Shown: in pieces, positions 1,988-33,487 of the stretch | Layout: every line of letters begins with the position of its first letter | Numbering within the stretch: position 1 is the first letter of the stretch | IMG/VR virus record: IMGVR_UViG_3300008259_000430 | Span: 1-33,487 of that record | Source: a virus | Direction: 5' to 3' (one strand) | Length of the DNA stretch: 33,487 nucleotides | The notes under the pieces: model-generated | The model's input: the letters and a program-made list of their open reading frames with translations, nothing else | Told to the model about the DNA's origin: nothing | The model's database searches: none | Position numbers and translations under genes: made by a program

Positions 1988-2223
1988 AACACCGCAACTT
2001 TTTAGATGATAACATTGGTAATTGGCATACAGTACAAAATGGTTATGTGCGTAATATCGATTTAGACATCTTAAAAATGTACGAGCATATTTATCGCAAG
2101 TATATGAGTGCAGATTTTATCTTAACAGTATGGTGCGGTAATTGTATCTTCGATATGATTAAACGATTATACACTTGGTACGAAGAACAACCTAAACCTA
2201 AAAATAAAAAAAAGAATGGCTAA
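1978..2223 (+). CDS. Conserved hypothetical protein with C-x-x-C
   Basis: An 81-residue protein. The frame could begin at a GTG (1969), but the ATG at 1978, giving MEIEHRNF, is preferred. It has a helical middle (YEHIYRKYMSADFIL), then WCGNCIFDMIKRLYTWYEE and a lysine-rich tail. The Cys-Gly-Asn-Cys followed by an aromatic helix is a pattern I have seen in small unassigned Bacteroidota phage proteins. It overlaps the acyltransferase gene by eight bases. Function unknown. Confidence 0.6.
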   Translation: MEIEHRNFLDDNIGNWHTVQNGYVRNIDLDILKMYEHIYRKYMSADFILTVWCGNCIFDMIKRLYTWYEEQPKPKNKKKNG

Positions 2224-2695
2224 CTTTATACACCCTACCGCTATCATTGGAGATAACGTAATTATCGGAGACGGAAACTACATTGGTGCTTATTGTATTA
2301 TTGGCGACAAAGCCGAGCATAAAAAGTTCTGGCAAAAAGAAAAAGGCAAAGTTTACATTGGCGATAACAATGTTATTACAGGACTTGTAACAATAGACGC
2401 AGGAACGGAGATTGATACCTTTATTGGTAATAATTGTTTCATAATGAAACACGCACACATTGGACACGATTGTACAATTTTAGATAATGTTACTATAAGC
2501 TGCGGAGCAAAAATAGGTGGGCATTCAATTATTGACAAAGGTGCTAACATAGGACTTAACGCAGTTCTACATCAGTTTGCAAACGTAGGAGAGAATTGTA
2601 TGATAGGGGCAAGTGCTTTTGTTAAAGGAGATGCAAAACCAAATACTAAATACGCAGGAGTTCCTGCACGAGAAATTGGTTCAAACATAAGATAA
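2216..2695 (+). CDS. Left-handed beta-helix acyltransferase (LpxA / sugar acetyltransferase type)
   Basis: A 159-residue protein made almost entirely of hexapeptide repeats of the [IV]-G-x-x-x-x type, the hallmark of trimeric left-handed beta-helix acyltransferases. It contains HIGHDC with His81 and His84, matching the HIAHDC segment of LpxA that carries the catalytic His, and later VLHQF, also LpxA-like. It is far shorter than LpxA (about 260 residues) because the C-terminal helical domain is absent. It ends with YAGVPAREIG, the usual ending of sugar O/N-acetyltransferases. It probably acylates a sugar or nucleotide sugar for surface glycan or lipid A. Two glycosyltransferases follow directly. 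Confidence 0.85.
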   Translation: MANFIHPTAIIGDNVIIGDGNYIGAYCIIGDKAEHKKFWQKEKGKVYIGDNNVITGLVTIDAGTEIDTFIGNNCFIMKHAHIGHDCTILDNVTISCGAKIGGHSIIDKGANIGLNAVLHQFANVGENCMIGASAFVKGDAKPNTKYAGVPAREIGSNIR

Positions 2696-3378
2696 TGAAA
2701 GTAGCTATTTTATTACTTACACAAAATAGGCACGATTTAACGCAGCGTGTAATCAACCAAAACTTTTACAATAGCGGCTACAATGCCGACTGCTTCTTAA
2801 TAGATAACGGAAGCGACAGGCACGAAACGTTTAATTATCCATTTGCCGGTTATGAGTTATCAAAAGAAAAACGAGGTATAGCGGCAGGAGTAAACGCAGG
2901 ACTTAGGCTAACCCAGAATTACGATGCGGTTTGTTTATTAGCCAACGACATATTACTTCCTGAGAATTGGTTAGCTAAGTTTGTATTGTTTGCACAACGA
3001 ATAGAAAAGACAGGCATAATAGGAATACATTGTGTAGAAGCATTACCACCAATAGTAGATGGTGTACATAAAGTACATACACCTTTTGGAGATAACTTTA
3101 TTACTCGTGAATTAATAGACACGATAGGTGGTTACAATACCGAGTATGACCCATACGGAATGCAAGATGCAGATTACGGGGAACGTGCAACTATTACAGG
3201 CTTTACTAATTACTACCTTCCAGATATGAGGTCGGAACATATAGGACACGATGTCGGAAACGGAACGGAATATAGACGAATGAAAGACGAAAGTTTAGCA
3301 AGGGCGCAAAGCGTTTGGGAAAAATACCAAGACATCTATCACAACCAAAAGAATATAAGATGCGAATACTTTGTATAA
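2695..3378 (+). CDS. GT-A (family 2-like) glycosyltransferase
   Basis: A 227-residue protein with the layout of a small GT-A glycosyltransferase: an N-terminal strand with TQNRHDLTQRV, DNGS in the nucleotide-binding region (about residues 37-40), KRGIAAGVNAGL, and LLANDILLPENW in the place of the metal-binding DxD region. Later come GGYNTEYDPYGMQDADYGER, where the acidic catalytic-type residues lie, and HIGHD. The motif is ND instead of a strict DxD. It starts at the stop of the acyltransferase gene and overlaps the next glycosyltransferase by 19 bases. It probably adds a sugar to a host surface glycan or phage structure; acceptor unknown. Confidence 0.82.
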   Translation: MKVAILLLTQNRHDLTQRVINQNFYNSGYNADCFLIDNGSDRHETFNYPFAGYELSKEKRGIAAGVNAGLRLTQNYDAVCLLANDILLPENWLAKFVLFAQRIEKTGIIGIHCVEALPPIVDGVHKVHTPFGDNFITRELIDTIGGYNTEYDPYGMQDADYGERATITGFTNYYLPDMRSEHIGHDVGNGTEYRRMKDESLARAQSVWEKYQDIYHNQKNIRCEYFV

Positions 3379-4355
3379 CTTCAGCTAATTCAGGAGTAGG
3401 ACTGCACCGAATAATGATGCCAATAGTACACTTAGAAAAAGAATATGCACTTATTACCGATGTACTTAATGACGAACTACTTGAGCAAGGTTGGGATATT
3501 GTGCTAATGAATAGAATGCTTAACGAGATAGATGCAAAGCAAATGGACACCTGGAGAACTAAGTATGGCTTTAAGTTAGTTGTTGATAATGACGATTACT
3601 GGGAACTAAACGAAAGCCATTTATTGTATTTAAGATATAAGCTTAACAATATACCTAAACTAATTACCGACTACTTAAATATTGCAGACCTATGCACCTG
3701 CACTCACGAAAGGTTAGCAGCTGAGATAAACTCATACAATAAGAACGTTCACATCTTACCAAACGCATTACCTTACGGACAAGAGCAGTTCCAGGATAAC
3801 AAGACCGAAGATTACAAGGTTAGATTATTTTGGAGCGGTAGCGGAACGCACGAGAGAGATTTAGAAATACTTAGGCAGCCTTTTAAAAGGTTACAAGGTA
3901 TGAATATAAGAACAGTTATAGCAGGTTACAATGACGGGGAGAAACCTATATGGGATAAAATGATAGATGCGTTCACTTGCGGACTAAAGCTTAACCCTAC
4001 TATCTACAACTATGCAAAGGTCACGGAATATATGGGTGCTTATACGGATAGCGATATTTCAATTATACCATTGGTAGATAACAAGTTCAATGCTATGAAG
4101 TCAAATTTAAAGGTATTAGAAACGGCTGCTAAAAAGAACCCTGCCATAGTTAGCCACGTCAATCCTTACTTAGATATGCCCGTGCATTACGTTAAAAGCC
4201 AGAAAGATTGGTACAAACATATTAAAGATTTAGTAAGCGATGCGGATATGCGAAAGGAAAGCGGACAGAAGTTGTTTGAGTTCTGCCAAAAGAAGTATAA
4301 CTTTGACGAGATAAATTTAGACCGAAAGTATATTTATAGTAAACTATGCCAGTAA
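3360..4355 (+). CDS. GT-B type glycosyltransferase
   Basis: A 331-residue protein from the ATG at 3360 (MRILCITSANSGVGLHRI); the open frame reaches back to 3315 inside the previous gene. The early Gly-Val-Gly-Leu-His-Arg is typical of the GT-B N-lobe. The C-lobe shows VRLFWSGSGTHERDLE, YTDSDISIIPLVDNKFNAMKSNLKVLETAA and AIVSHVNPY, matching family 4-like enzymes in which the donor-binding Glu and Lys/Asn lie in this segment. It belongs to the same operon as the acyltransferase and GT-A enzyme. The three together could alter the O-antigen or capsule to block superinfection. Confidence 0.83.
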   Translation: MRILCITSANSGVGLHRIMMPIVHLEKEYALITDVLNDELLEQGWDIVLMNRMLNEIDAKQMDTWRTKYGFKLVVDNDDYWELNESHLLYLRYKLNNIPKLITDYLNIADLCTCTHERLAAEINSYNKNVHILPNALPYGQEQFQDNKTEDYKVRLFWSGSGTHERDLEILRQPFKRLQGMNIRTVIAGYNDGEKPIWDKMIDAFTCGLKLNPTIYNYAKVTEYMGAYTDSDISIIPLVDNKFNAMKSNLKVLETAAKKNPAIVSHVNPYLDMPVHYVKSQKDWYKHIKDLVSDADMRKESGQKLFEFCQKKYNFDEINLDRKYIYSKLCQ

Positions 4356-6601: not shown

Positions 6602-6970
6602 ATGCCTAATCCACAAAATATAGAGCCATACAAAATGCAGAAGGGGGAAACATTGAACCCAAACGGCAGACCCAGGAAGTATGTAAGCCTACTTAAAGAG
6701 CAAGGCTATAAACTTGCTGAGATAAACGACACCATACAAGCTATGATGTCAATGGACTTAGAGGAACTTAAAACAGTATGGGATAATCCGAAGGCAACAA
6801 TACTTGAAAAGACAATAGCAGCAGCTATGCGTAAGAGCTTAGAGAAGGGCAGCCTTTATAGTTTAGAAACTTTGCTTACCCGTGTTTATGGTAAACCTAA
6901 AGAACAGATGGACATACAAACAGATAACAGAATAGAGATAGTATTTGTAGACGGCAAGACAATTCTTTAA
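6602..6970 (+). CDS. terS: Small terminase subunit-like protein (DUF5681 type)
   Basis: A 122-residue protein beginning with KGETLNPNGRPRK, the N-terminal NPxGRP motif of the DUF5681/small-terminase-like family. The rest is helical (LLKEQGYKLAEINDTIQAMM and TILEKTIAAAMRKSLEKG) with an oligomerisation-type helix pair. It ends one base into the next gene, the large terminase, which is the expected partner. It would bind packaging sites on phage DNA and regulate the motor. Twenty bases separate it from the methyltransferase. Confidence 0.75.
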   Translation: MPNPQNIEPYKMQKGETLNPNGRPRKYVSLLKEQGYKLAEINDTIQAMMSMDLEELKTVWDNPKATILEKTIAAAMRKSLEKGSLYSLETLLTRVYGKPKEQMDIQTDNRIEIVFVDGKTIL

Positions 6971-7458
6971 TGCGGATAGAACTACCTAACGGACATATAA
7001 ACCAAAAGAAGATACTTGACTGCGAAGCCAGGTACATTGTTGTTATGTGTGGTCGAAGGTTCGGCAAATCGGAGTTAAGCCAAATCAAATGTATTACAAC
7101 TGCAATCAAAGGCGGACAGGTAGCTTACATAACCCCTACCTATAAATTGGCTAAGGTATTCTTTGAGAAGCTATGCAATAGCCTTCCCTTCCCTAATAAC
7201 AAATCGGACTTAAACATTAGCTTCCCTAATGGTGGCAAGGTCGAGTTCTTTACGGGGGAACGCTTGGATAACTTAAGAGGTAGAAAGTTTAACCTGGTAA
7301 TAGTAGATGAAGCTTCTTTTATACCTGACTTAGAAGATGGGTGGCTTAACTCAATAAGACCTACCTTAACGGACTACAAGGGGGCAATTACCCGAGGTTG
7401 TATTCGAGCAAGAGTATATGGCAAACCCTGCGGAGAACGCAGCAAACCCTTTTGGTAG
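6970..7458 (+). CDS. terL: Large terminase, N-terminal ATPase part (broken gene)
   Basis: A 162-residue open frame holding the ATPase lobe: Walker A GRRFGKS at residues 28-34 and Walker B VIVDEASF with Asp113-Glu114. Homology-like sequence continues to IRPTLTDYKG, ending at residue 138 (about 7383), after which the frame reads into unrelated residues and stops. The real continuation resumes in the +1 frame (see next feature), and the expected coupling motif (Ser-Thr-Pro type) and the linker to the nuclease are absent. A normal large terminase is over 400 residues. This looks like an out-of-frame internal deletion or an assembly collapse. Confidence 0.88.
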   Translation: MRIELPNGHINQKKILDCEARYIVVMCGRRFGKSELSQIKCITTAIKGGQVAYITPTYKLAKVFFEKLCNSLPFPNNKSDLNISFPNGGKVEFFTGERLDNLRGRKFNLVIVDEASFIPDLEDGWLNSIRPTLTDYKGAITRGCIRARVYGKPCGERSKPFW

Positions 7459-7975
7459 CCAACACATTCGCAAGTGCTTACACCCAGTAACAACAATGCC
7501 GATTGTAGCTTATGGAATTGATCTGGCGAAGTCGGTCGATTGGACAGTTATCATAGGCTTAGACGAAGACGGGAATGTGGCTTATTTTGACCGCTTTCAG
7601 ATGGATTGGCACAATACTAAGCAAACTATACTTAGGCTGCCTAAATGCCCTATCCTTGTCGATAGTACGGGGGTTGGCGACCCTATCCTTGAGGACTTAC
7701 AAAGAGAAGGGGTAATGATACAAGGCTTAAAGTTCACAAGTTCGAGTAAACAACAACTTATGGAAGGCTTACAGGCTGCAATACATCAAGGGAAGATTGG
7801 CTATCCTGAGGGTATAATAAGCCAGGAGTTAGAAGTATTTGAATATATGTACACGGCAACGGGGGTAAAGTACTCCGCACCTTCAGGCTTCCACGATGAT
7901 GCCGTAATGGCTTTAGCTTTGGCTTGGCAGAACTTTAGCCTTAAGCGTGGCACGGGTAGGTACAACTTCCTATAA
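7418..7975 (+). CDS. terL: Large terminase, C-terminal nuclease part (broken gene)
   Basis: The open frame from the ATG at 7418 encodes the RNase H-fold packaging nuclease: YGIDLAKSVDWT with the first catalytic Asp, LVDSTGVGDPI, and FHDDAVMALALA with the C-terminal acidic pair. In this frame, coding-like sequence extends upstream of the ATG to about 7385 (LPEVVFEQEYMANPAEN), matching what precedes the nuclease in intact terminases, so the ATG is unlikely to be a natural start. Both halves are well conserved, with only the middle gone, so the lesion appears recent or artificial. Confidence 0.88.
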   Translation: MANPAENAANPFGSQHIRKCLHPVTTMPIVAYGIDLAKSVDWTVIIGLDEDGNVAYFDRFQMDWHNTKQTILRLPKCPILVDSTGVGDPILEDLQREGVMIQGLKFTSSSKQQLMEGLQAAIHQGKIGYPEGIISQELEVFEYMYTATGVKYSAPSGFHDDAVMALALAWQNFSLKRGTGRYNFL

Positions 7976-15012: not shown

Positions 15013-16826
15013 TGGCACAAGAGAACTCAGTAGATATAAATATAAAAGTTGGCGGTAACCAAGACCAAGCTTTAGGCTCTTTAAAAAAGCAGTTAAAGGA
15101 AGCTATACAAGAGGTGCAAGTTTTAACAGAAAAATTTGGAGAAACTTCAGAACAAACAGTTAGGGCAGTAGAAAGGGCTGCTGCATTAAAAGACCAAATT
15201 GGTTTTGTAAATGATAGTATTGAAGCATTTAATCCTGATGCTAAATTTAAATCATTAACTGCTTCTCTTAGTGGCGTAGCAGGTGGCTTTGCAGCAGCAC
15301 AGGGTGCTATTGGTTTATTTGGTGTAGAGTCAAAAGAAGTAGAACAAGCTTTATTAAGGGTGCAATCTGCTATGGCTTTATCGCAAGGATTACAAGCAGT
15401 AGGGGAAAGCATAGATAGTTTTAAGCAATTAGGAACAGTAATTAAGAATAGCACAATATTTATTAAGGCAAATGAAATGGCTAATAAAGCTGCATCATTT
15501 GCTATGAGGTTATTTGGCGTAAGCGTAGAAACTACATCAACTTCTTTTAAAGTACTTAAAGGTGTAATAGCTGCAACAGGATTAGGTTTACTTGTTGTAG
15601 CACTTGGTGAGGTTGTTTCTATGTTTCAAAACTTTAGCAGCGCAGCAGAAAAAGCAGCAGAGAAACAAGACGAATTTAATAAGCGTGTAACCGAAGGTGC
15701 TAAAACTGCATTAAAAGCAGAACAACAAAATTTAGCAAATCAAGAAAAATTAGAAATTGCTAAAGCTAAATTAAGGGGTGCAAGTGAAAAAGAAATATTT
15801 GATATAGAGCAAAGTTACAGAAGATTAAAAGCACAAGCTCAAGTAAGATTTTTTGAAGAAACTAAAAATGCAGATAAACAAGCAGCTAAAGAAGCAAAAG
15901 AAGAAATTGATAGAGCCAATGTAGAAGGTCAAGTTGCATTATTAGATTTTCAAGCCAAACAAGCAGCAGCAAGAAAAGCAAAAGCTAAAGAAGCAAACGA
16001 TGCTTTAGCAGAGCAAGAAGCTGCAAGATTAGAAAAACAACTTAATGACGAAAAGAAACTTACAGAACAATTATTAGAAGAATACGATAAAAGAAGGGGC
16101 ATTGCAAATAATGCAAAGATTTTAACTCAAAAAGAATTAAATGCATTAGATGCTCAAGATGAAGCGGAAAAAGCAGCAAAGCAAAAAGAAAAAGAAGATA
16201 AACAAATAGCCTTCTTATCAAAAATTACAAATTATACTTATCAAAACATTTTAAAAGACCAACAGCTAAAAGAAGATGCAAGAAAAGCAGAACTACAAGC
16301 TGACCAAGCTTTACAAGACGCAAAGTTTCAAGCAGCTTCGGCAGGTCTTAATTTATTAGCAAGCCTTGCAGGAGAGAATGAAAAGATAGCAAATGCTATT
16401 TTTGTAATTGATAAAGCTTTAGCCATTGCTAAAATTGTAGTAGATACACAAAGAGAAATTTCAGCATATGCAGCTAACCCAACTTGGAGTTTACTTCCTG
16501 ACGGGGGTGCTTTAATAAAAGGTAAATACATTTTAGCTGCAAAGGTTAGAGCAGGTGCAGGTATTGCATCTATTGTAGGTACAACTATTGCAAAGTTTAA
16601 AGGTGGCGGTTCAGCAGGTGGCGTAGGTGGTGGAACTTCTGCGCCAAGTGTTTCGGCAGGTGCACCATTAGCACCACCACAACCACAAGCACAAACAACC
16701 ACATTGGATAGCCAAAGTATTAATGCAATAGGAAATCAAGCTACAAGGGCATATGTTCTCGAAAGCGATGTAACTGGCAGTCAACAAAGGATTGCAGCTA
16801 TTCAGCAAAGAGCAAGGTTTGGTTAA
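15012..16826 (+). CDS. Tape measure protein
   Basis: A 604-residue protein with the usual features: an N-terminal beta strand plus helix (VDINIKVGGNQDQALGSLKKQLKEAIQEVQVL), long Ala/Glu/Lys-rich coiled coils (about residues 215-430), two hydrophobic patches (VIAATGLGLLVVALGEVV near 190; FVIDKALAIAKIVV near 470), and a Gly/Ala/Pro-rich end. By the usual 1.5 angstrom per residue rule the tail would be about 90 nm. No peptidase domain seen. It overlaps the upstream stop (TAATGG). Confidence 0.82.
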   Translation: MAQENSVDINIKVGGNQDQALGSLKKQLKEAIQEVQVLTEKFGETSEQTVRAVERAAALKDQIGFVNDSIEAFNPDAKFKSLTASLSGVAGGFAAAQGAIGLFGVESKEVEQALLRVQSAMALSQGLQAVGESIDSFKQLGTVIKNSTIFIKANEMANKAASFAMRLFGVSVETTSTSFKVLKGVIAATGLGLLVVALGEVVSMFQNFSSAAEKAAEKQDEFNKRVTEGAKTALKAEQQNLANQEKLEIAKAKLRGASEKEIFDIEQSYRRLKAQAQVRFFEETKNADKQAAKEAKEEIDRANVEGQVALLDFQAKQAAARKAKAKEANDALAEQEAARLEKQLNDEKKLTEQLLEEYDKRRGIANNAKILTQKELNALDAQDEAEKAAKQKEKEDKQIAFLSKITNYTYQNILKDQQLKEDARKAELQADQALQDAKFQAASAGLNLLASLAGENEKIANAIFVIDKALAIAKIVVDTQREISAYAANPTWSLLPDGGALIKGKYILAAKVRAGAGIASIVGTTIAKFKGGGSAGGVGGGTSAPSVSAGAPLAPPQPQAQTTTLDSQSINAIGNQATRAYVLESDVTGSQQRIAAIQQRARFG

Positions 16827-32480: not shown

Positions 32481-32909
32481 ATGCTAAATAGAAAGAAGGA
32501 TATATCAATAAGACAATTAAAGGAGTTATACTTTGCACAACGCAACACCCATTTGCAGCTACACGAAATGATGCAGCAACTTGGATTGTTAGGCATAGAA
32601 GATAACGAGCCTTTAGGGTTAGACATTGGTGCGAGAACTATTGTTAAATTGGTAGACGAAGAGTTTGAGTGCGATGTATTAATTAAGGATAGGAGTTTAA
32701 AAACAACGTTTGGGCGCAAGGCTGCTGCTTATTTACTCAGGAGATATACCAAATTGAGCCTTAAGGAGATAAGCCAATACACAGGAACAAGCGACCATAC
32801 AACGGCTATCCATAACATAAAACAAGCGAATAACCTAATAGAAACTGAGGACTGGTTTAAAACTAAGCTAAAAAAACTTTGCTTAAAATTAGAACTTAAA
32901 GAAATTTAG
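32481..32909 (+). CDS. Stand-alone DnaA domain IV-type protein
   Basis: A 142-residue protein with a C-terminal domain (about 77-142) matching bacterial DnaA domain IV: FGRKAAAYLLRRYTKLSLKEISQYTGTSDHTTAIHNIKQ, including the DnaA signature with Asp105-His106-Thr107-Thr108 and Lys114. The AAA+ domain of DnaA is absent; the first 75 residues are a different helical region. It should bind DnaA-box-like DNA, directing replication at a phage origin or competing with host DnaA. The replication protein gene follows after the structured leader. Confidence 0.82.
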   Translation: MLNRKKDISIRQLKELYFAQRNTHLQLHEMMQQLGLLGIEDNEPLGLDIGARTIVKLVDEEFECDVLIKDRSLKTTFGRKAAAYLLRRYTKLSLKEISQYTGTSDHTTAIHNIKQANNLIETEDWFKTKLKKLCLKLELKEI

Positions 32910-32911
32910 TG

Positions 32912-33020
32912 TATATTCGCAACATAAAAGACACATTAACGTACTGCGAACCGATAATGTGTTTAGTGGTTAAATAATAATAACCCTGGTAGTTCGCAGC
33001 TATCGGGGTTTATTTTTTTT
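32912..33020 (+). ncRNA. Structured leader with complementary hairpin loops (candidate riboregulator)
   Basis: A -7-like box TATATTCG (32912-32919, one mismatch to consensus) precedes two hairpins. Hairpin 1: ACACATTA (32931-32938) with TAATGTGT (32955-32962), loop of 16 bases that includes CTGCGAA (32944-32950). Hairpin 2: an eleven-pair stem (32982-32992 with 33000-33010) with loop TTCGCAG (32993-32999). The two loop sequences are exact complements over seven bases, so they can kiss. GGTTA (32968-32972) can instead pair with TAACC (32981-32985), which is the foot of hairpin 2. This could be an attenuator or small RNA; not proven. Confidence 0.55.
32982..33020 (+). terminator. Strong intrinsic terminator just before the replication gene
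   Basis: AACCCTGGTAG (32982-32992) pairs with CTATCGGGGTT (33000-33010), with two wobbles and loop TTCGCAG, followed by TATTTTTTTT (33011-33020). The T run touches the ATG at 33021. It would stop transcription from the early operon unless the hairpin is prevented from forming. Confidence 0.85.
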
Positions 33021-33487
33021 ATGGCAAAAGACCCTGCATTTTTATTTTATAGCAGCGACTTTCTAAATGGAGTAGCTGACTTAACAATGGAAGAGAGAGG
33101 ACAATTTATTACTCTCTTATGTTTACAACACCAAAAAGGAACACTTACAGACAAAACCATTAGGTTATCTTTAGGTTCTGTTTCGGTTGATGTTTTAAGC
33201 AAGTTTTCAAAAGACAAAGACGGAAATTTTTTTAATGAACGCTTAAATGAAGAGATTGAAAAACGCATTCAATTTACTGAAAGCCGTAGAAACAATGGCT
33301 CTAAGGGTGGTAGACCTAAAAATAATACAAAACCATTAGGTTTAGCTAAACATAACCTTATGGAAGATGTAAATGAAAATGAAAATGAAGATATAAATAT
33401 AAATAAAAGTAAATGTACTTTTGAAGAAGTTTACGAATATATGGCTATTAGGATTGGAAAAGAAAATGCTAAATTAGAAGCCGAAAA
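33021..33487 (+). CDS. Phage replication protein, N-terminal part (DUF1376-like)
   Basis: The gene begins at the ATG 33021 and leaves the window; it finishes at 373 via the circular junction (241 residues in total). The N-terminal domain (AFLFYSSDFLNGVADLTMEERGQFITLLCLQHQKGTLTDKTIRL) matches the DUF1376/replisome-organiser winged-helix family, with a following NNGSKGGRPK segment typical of phage initiator proteins. It should bind the phage origin and recruit host helicase. The ATG sits directly after the terminator T run, so its expression depends on readthrough or a different start. Confidence 0.85.
   Translation, partial: MAKDPAFLFYSSDFLNGVADLTMEERGQFITLLCLQHQKGTLTDKTIRLSLGSVSVDVLSKFSKDKDGNFFNERLNEEIEKRIQFTESRRNNGSKGGRPKNNTKPLGLAKHNLMEDVNENENEDININKSKCTFEEVYEYMAIRIGKENAKLEAE
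33374..33487. repeat. Terminal direct repeat, right copy (circular junction)
   Basis: Exact copy of bases 1-114; see the left copy. It shows the contig closes on itself, giving a 33,373-base unit. Confidence 0.95.

Follow-up and report, generated by a model that had tools for sequence, protein, structure and literature searches.

Downstream of a gene with a DnaA-box binding domain and immediately ahead of a replication gene, a short gap in a phage genome raises the question of whether it encodes an RNA element that decides if transcription continues into the replication gene. The window, that is, the whole stretch of 33,487 nucleotides that was analysed, carries a 114-nt direct repeat at both ends (1-114 and 33374-33487) and thus represents a complete circular phage genome of 33,373 bp, in which all ORFs that were translated lie on the + strand. 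No close DNA relative of the window was found among the GenBank phages. The host is probably a flavobacterium, because the portal protein is closest to the portals of Nonlabens and Cellulophaga phages. The large terminase subunit is apparently encoded by two overlapping ORFs in different frames (6970-7458 and 7418-7975), which PHROG coordinates assign to its N-terminal and C-terminal portions, and this arrangement may be a frameshift, a genuine split gene or an assembly error. Glycosyltransferase genes are located between the replication and packaging genes (2216-4355), together with a hexapeptide-repeat-like protein named from sequence reading.

The leader and its parts

The upstream gene (32481-32909, + strand) encodes a DnaA C-terminal domain (Pfam Bac_DnaA_C, E 1.9e-11) and is separated by 111 bases from the replication gene (33021-33487, continuing past the circle junction at 1-373; + strand), which matches the PHROG primosomal protein family (E 6e-9) and, under the family cut-off, Pfam DUF1376 (E 4e-4). 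An earlier note on this DNA had proposed that this gap holds a leader with kissing loops, closed by an intrinsic terminator just before the replication gene, which the present analysis supports; its coordinates for the hairpins, loops, pairings and a short ORF all proved correct when re-read from the sequence.

The leader, which lies on the + strand, is preceded by the -7 box TATATTCG (32912-32919), a predicted Bacteroidetes-type promoter of the TAnnTTTG type that would set the transcription start at ~32924, about 7 nt ahead of hairpin 1. In F. psychrophilum the mapped sigma-A box is TAnnTTTG, located at -12 to -5 (PMC9723704). TATATTYG is present upstream in relatives fetched by their downstream protein, and also in 167 elements of the window's type (type A), where it was used as a search filter. 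On the minus strand no TAWWTTYG box was found within or just downstream of the leader, the nearest being at 33441.

Hairpin 1 (32930-32963) consists of an outer stem (32930-32938/32955-32963), with arms ACACATTA (32931-32938) and TAATGTGT (32955-32962) and a loop of 16 nt, and of an inner 2-bp stem (32940-32941/32952-32953; C32940-G32953 and G32941-C32952) that reduces the effective loop to 10 nt. Within this loop lies the first kissing strand, CTGCGAA (32944-32950), and its exact complement TTCGCAG (32993-32999) forms the 7-nt loop of hairpin 2, an intrinsic terminator with an 11-bp stem (32982-33010) that was identified by folding, by a terminator scan and in relatives. The 3' arm of hairpin 1 and the linker contain the 19-nt stretch ATGTGTTTAGTGGTTAAAT (32957-32975), which is frozen in relatives and is overlapped by a middle pairing (32968-32985) of GGTTA (32968-32972) with TAACC (32981-32985) that shares the foot of the terminator. 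The T-tract TATTTTTTTT (33011-33020), read from the sequence and found by the terminator scan, reaches the start codon of the replication gene and lies within about 25 nt of the start codon in most relatives; the predicted RNA 3' end is at ~33018. With its start set by the promoter box and a T-tract extending up to the start codon, a terminated leader of ~95 nt is the expected transcript, as the earlier note had estimated.

The minimum free energy of the leader is lower than that of shuffled sequences (z = -2.55). A purpose-made score, which sums hairpin 1, hairpin 2 and the loop-loop stacking, reaches -46.8 for the leader, compared to a shuffle mean of -21.7; it was attained by none of 40 shuffles and is the top score among 2226 windows of 120 nt on both genome strands. 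Because this score is self-made and ignores tertiary strain, the argument is carried by the comparative evidence. The second-best kissing-hairpin score of the genome (-39.7) is located within an ORF at 16590-16710.

Conservation and covariation among relatives

Relatives were retrieved through similarity of the downstream protein, the leader being no criterion of the search, and 61 of the 80 obtained in this manner bear the element, all with an identical ATGTGTTTAGTGGTTAAAT (counted by eye). With pattern scans added, the census comprises ~166 metagenomic phage contigs, and both loops can be parsed in 164 of them. Exact 7/7 complementarity between the loops is kept in 162 of these, distributed over six loop types (CTGCGAA, CTACGAA, GTACGAA, GAGCGAA, AGTCGAG and AGTCCAG), while the two exceptions, L133 (the L009 contig) and L465, are one mismatch off and mix two loop types. 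It is this retention of 7/7 complementarity across six loop sequences that leads us to accept the kissing loop as real.

The covariation that the earlier note had predicted for both stems and both loops was found. In 43 distinct cores the kissing helix is paired in 99.7% of cells, with double changes in five of its seven pairs and no G.U, and the whole structure is 99.1% paired, a figure that falls to 88% after shuffling and to 34-42% in slid controls. Hairpin 1 is paired in 99.2% of cells and three of its pairs are changed on both sides; one of the two pairs of its inner stem covaries (C-G to G-C). Hairpin 2 is paired in 98.6% of cells, with double changes in three pairs. The stems hold 115 G.U cells and not a single A.C. 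This is the pattern expected of a + strand RNA, and the promoter and T-tract point in the same direction.

Other genes and other leaders in the same slot

At least five kinds of gene follow the type-A leader, namely two DUF1376-like variants, the Lin1244_N-like MAKDTFYF, MAKRFTDT, MTYGEKLK (called HNH-type from sequence alone) and MAQLKYKD. Relatives of these downstream genes bear leaders that have no evident sequence similarity to type A and follow the same plan. In family K (L350-L364) a separate hairpin, AGGTT..AACCT, stands between hairpin 1 and the terminator, and the kissing loops are GGTAGGAG/CTCCTACC, AGGTGAGAG/CTCTCACCT, GTGGTAG/CTACCAC and GTGGAAG/CTTCCAC. Family B, of which 13 sequences were extracted using AACTTATT as an anchor, has two 7-nt loops that are fully complementary in five versions, together with an internal loop and the conserved AACTTATT linker. 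In two members of this family, L419 and L438, the loops are swapped relative to L312 and L444 (ATGCGAC in hairpin 1, GTCGCAT in the terminator).

Of 75 upstream regions that lack type A, taken after dereplication, 14.7% score -38 or lower; the corresponding share is 0.3% among 1500 shuffles and zero among 75 coding segments. The plan also extends to isolated phages. In Flavobacterium phage 11b the slot scores -44.8, is the best site in the genome and has the kissing loops CGGGCAGG/CCTGCCCG; Flavobacterium phages elemoA and hattifnatt9-1 score -32.4 and -34.5, and in each of the three isolates none of 200 shuffles reaches the score. No such element was found before the homologous gene of the Flavobacterium phages tooticki, sniff and hemulen or seen in the leader of Pseudanabaena phage Pan5, and the stem-plus-kiss scan gave no candidate above background in Nonlabens phage P12024S. 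The Cellulophaga phages phi13:2 and phi19:3 (L449 and L450) have a weak hairpin 1 and a near-chance score. Their layout is similar, with a gap of ~145 nt before the gene at locus 901, and the large loop of the terminator is complementary over 9 nt to the 5' region (CTCTCACAA/TTGTGAGAG). When 84,980 bacterial and archaeal genomes were searched for the type-A core, a single match was obtained, in Vibrio; it lacks the hairpins and was judged to be due to chance.

The comparison also bears on the middle pairing, which had been proposed to open the foot of the terminator. The overlap that such opening requires is present in the window's type only, while in family K and in L281, L315, L322, L401 and L403 a separate hairpin occupies this position. 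The versions found in unrelated leaders (AGGTT..AACCT, GGTTA..TAACC, CGGTAA..TTACCG and CGGG..CCCG) show compensatory differences; several of the short linkers with a middle hairpin lie individually inside the shuffle range. GGTTA/TAACC is therefore described here as probably a structural middle stem. Because its TAACC half is common to the terminator foot, it is possible that in type A the middle pairing and the terminator are mutually exclusive, which would not be a general property. No common switch point is defined, since the linkers of family B, 11b and hattifnatt9-1 form no middle hairpin.

Proposed cis attenuation, its rivals and known systems

Observed are a conserved structure, a promoter-like box, a terminator and a place before replication-type genes, and together they probably make the leader of a phage replication operon a transcription attenuator that acts in cis. 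This is the best reading because a promoter, a terminator, an adjoining start codon and the exchange of unrelated leaders in the same slot come together. It is proposed that RNA polymerase starts at ~32924 and that hairpin 1 is made first, whereupon the loop of the emerging terminator would pair with the loop of hairpin 1 through seven Watson-Crick pairs. This contact would link the formation of the terminator, and release, to hairpin 1 and to the frozen linker. The default RNA would end at ~33018, just ahead of the start codon, and the replication genes would be expressed through read-through only. We infer both the attenuation itself and the role of the kiss as its regulated step; the kiss may either promote or hinder termination, and the outcome may be tipped by the docking state, by a protein of phage or host origin bound to the linker, or by another RNA. 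The kiss could also be merely structural, since on paper it can coexist with the terminator.

The terminated ~95-nt RNA might instead act in trans by binding nascent leaders of the same loop type and pushing them towards termination, and this self-recognition, which would resemble that of plasmid antisense RNAs, is unlikely. It would act on other copies or on superinfecting phages, with allele-specific loops governing replication copy number or incompatibility, a consequence that is likewise unlikely. Nothing else in the element varies as much as the loops, whose diversity of 0.377 exceeds that of the stems (0.10-0.18) and that of the linker (0.016). Comparison of 32 independent close pairs gave loop differences at 9.8% of sites and, in the downstream gene, synonymous differences at 6.6%; the loops turn over at 1.2-2x the synonymous rate. 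An earlier figure of loops evolving 4-7x faster than the flanking genes was dropped in favour of this comparison. Every loop change is matched in the partner loop, including all 12 of the changed pairs at the 5% threshold, and parsimony on four trees of downstream genes requires at least 38 changes of loop type. L029 and L031, a pair chosen because their loops differ, diverge at 5 of 940 positions, four of them within or beside the loops. In ColE1 plasmids loop changes alone create compatibility (PMC9458437). This coordinated turnover fits a diversifying specificity determinant and also recombination of leader cassettes; it permits trans self-recognition and does not prove it. Against action in trans, both loops lie in one RNA, which favours a contact in cis at low concentration; each contig has a single element and a separate antisense gene was not seen. 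Contigs from the same sample share loop types near expectation in the full census (7 compared to 9.0, P = 0.30), in which an avoidance of shared types indicated by a partial set (3 compared to 6.7, P 0.07) is gone.

Two further readings give the frozen linker a different role. In a ligand- or protein-binding switch reminiscent of riboswitches the linker would be the sensor and the kiss would close the binding site, in keeping with the 19 frozen nucleotides of type A and the conserved linker and internal loop of family B. This is unlikely, as the linker is wholly different between leader families of the same slot and no Rfam riboswitch was matched. Alternatively, the locus might be a small-RNA gene in which the kiss makes a compact, nuclease-resistant RNA of ~95 nt with targets elsewhere, the next gene being merely adjacent; the promoter-like box and complete terminator would suit this, and the frozen linker might then serve as a seed or bind a protein. 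Adjacency leaves unexplained why unrelated leaders occupy the same slot before replication-type start codons, and the small-RNA reading is distinctly unlikely.

Attenuation by a leader peptide, for which the six-codon ORF MCLVVK (ATG TGT TTA GTG GTT AAA TAA, 32957-32977) would be the candidate, is highly improbable. The ORF is present, its ATG and stop flank the switch region, and the stop is retained as TGA in L040, L136, L152, L162 and L185. However, its codons are invariant even at synonymous sites, a one-base deletion destroys the stop in L060, L075 and L076, and no similar ORF was seen in families B and K. The leader peptide was rejected for want of codon-like variation, and the ORF is probably an incidental by-product of RNA constraint. 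A DNA-level element such as replication-origin hairpins, suggested by the neighbours, a DnaA-domain gene on one side and a replication gene on the other, is scarcely credible in view of the one-sided T-tract, the promoter position, the G.U without A.C in the stems and the constant nearness to the start codon.

In its proposed working as a cis attenuator the leader most resembles the attenuators of the plasmids pT181 and pIP501, with a terminator before a replication gene, loop-loop contacts and, possibly in type A, competing stems; the intrinsic terminator in the leader of the replication gene, a trait of both, is found in the window. In pT181 and pIP501 a separately made antisense RNA initiates the kiss (PMC4878617), whereas the leader has its two loops in a single transcript and its sequence shows no antisense promoter. 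Since no counter-transcript was seen and the two loops share a single RNA, the leader, on its predicted structure, is not a member of this group. The kissing loops of ColE1 comprise 7 nt and are fully paired. Full pairing is shared by the leader with ColE1 RNAI/RNAII and other antisense copy-control RNAs, loop variants set specificity in RNAI/RNAII, and loop alleles turn over in the leader. Unlike RNAI/RNAII the leader is neither counter-transcribed nor a primer, and no sense/antisense pair of the ColE1 type is present in it, the complementarity being inside one transcript.

Gating of phage replication by RNA is as such already known from the CI RNA of phage P4. In this system and in the C4 antisense RNA of P1/P7, pairing stops the expression of replication or antirepressor genes, as pairing in the leader would for a replication gene. 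The leader differs in structure and hosts and has no Rfam match; the covariance model of the c4 antisense RNA (RF01695) gave no match at the gathering threshold or at E<=5. Searches of the window and 20 relatives against Rfam yielded only a tRNA at threshold, and sub-threshold matches to trpB and CopA were judged generic. The trpB motif (RF04312; 25.6 bits compared to a gathering threshold of 59 bits) resembles the leader in placing a hairpin and then an intrinsic terminator in a 5' leader, and differs in coming from Firmicutes and Fusobacteria; the text of the paper describing it does not mention kissing (PMC11109978). The claim that no phage element of this form has been described agrees with Rfam and with the open-access literature searched.

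Many phage leaders, related and apparently unrelated, maintain the loop-loop contact although its sequence changes, which suggests a hitherto undescribed RNA switch that controls phage DNA replication. To our knowledge, regulatory RNAs gating replication have been described in only a few model phages, and the leaders would add a class found by covariation and broadly distributed in flavobacterial-type phages, distinctive in that the contact is made within a single leader, from a 5' hairpin to a terminator loop. If they also acted in trans, each replication-operon leader would carry its own key and lock in a widespread phage RNA system, and loop alleles would define copy-control or incompatibility groups among co-infecting phages, as RNAI/RNAII do in plasmids. 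Because the element occurs in the isolates 11b, elemoA and hattifnatt9-1, action in cis and allele-specific action in trans are directly testable. The leaders would further provide natural orthogonal sets of kissing-loop terminators.

In L080/L202 and L203 a second complement of the terminator loop is located upstream of DUF1376, immediately ahead of the ATG (TCCGGCAA-C-ATG in L080 and TTCAGGCAAC in L203), and covaries with it, which suggests that in these leaders the terminator loop may pair with either hairpin 1 or the start region.
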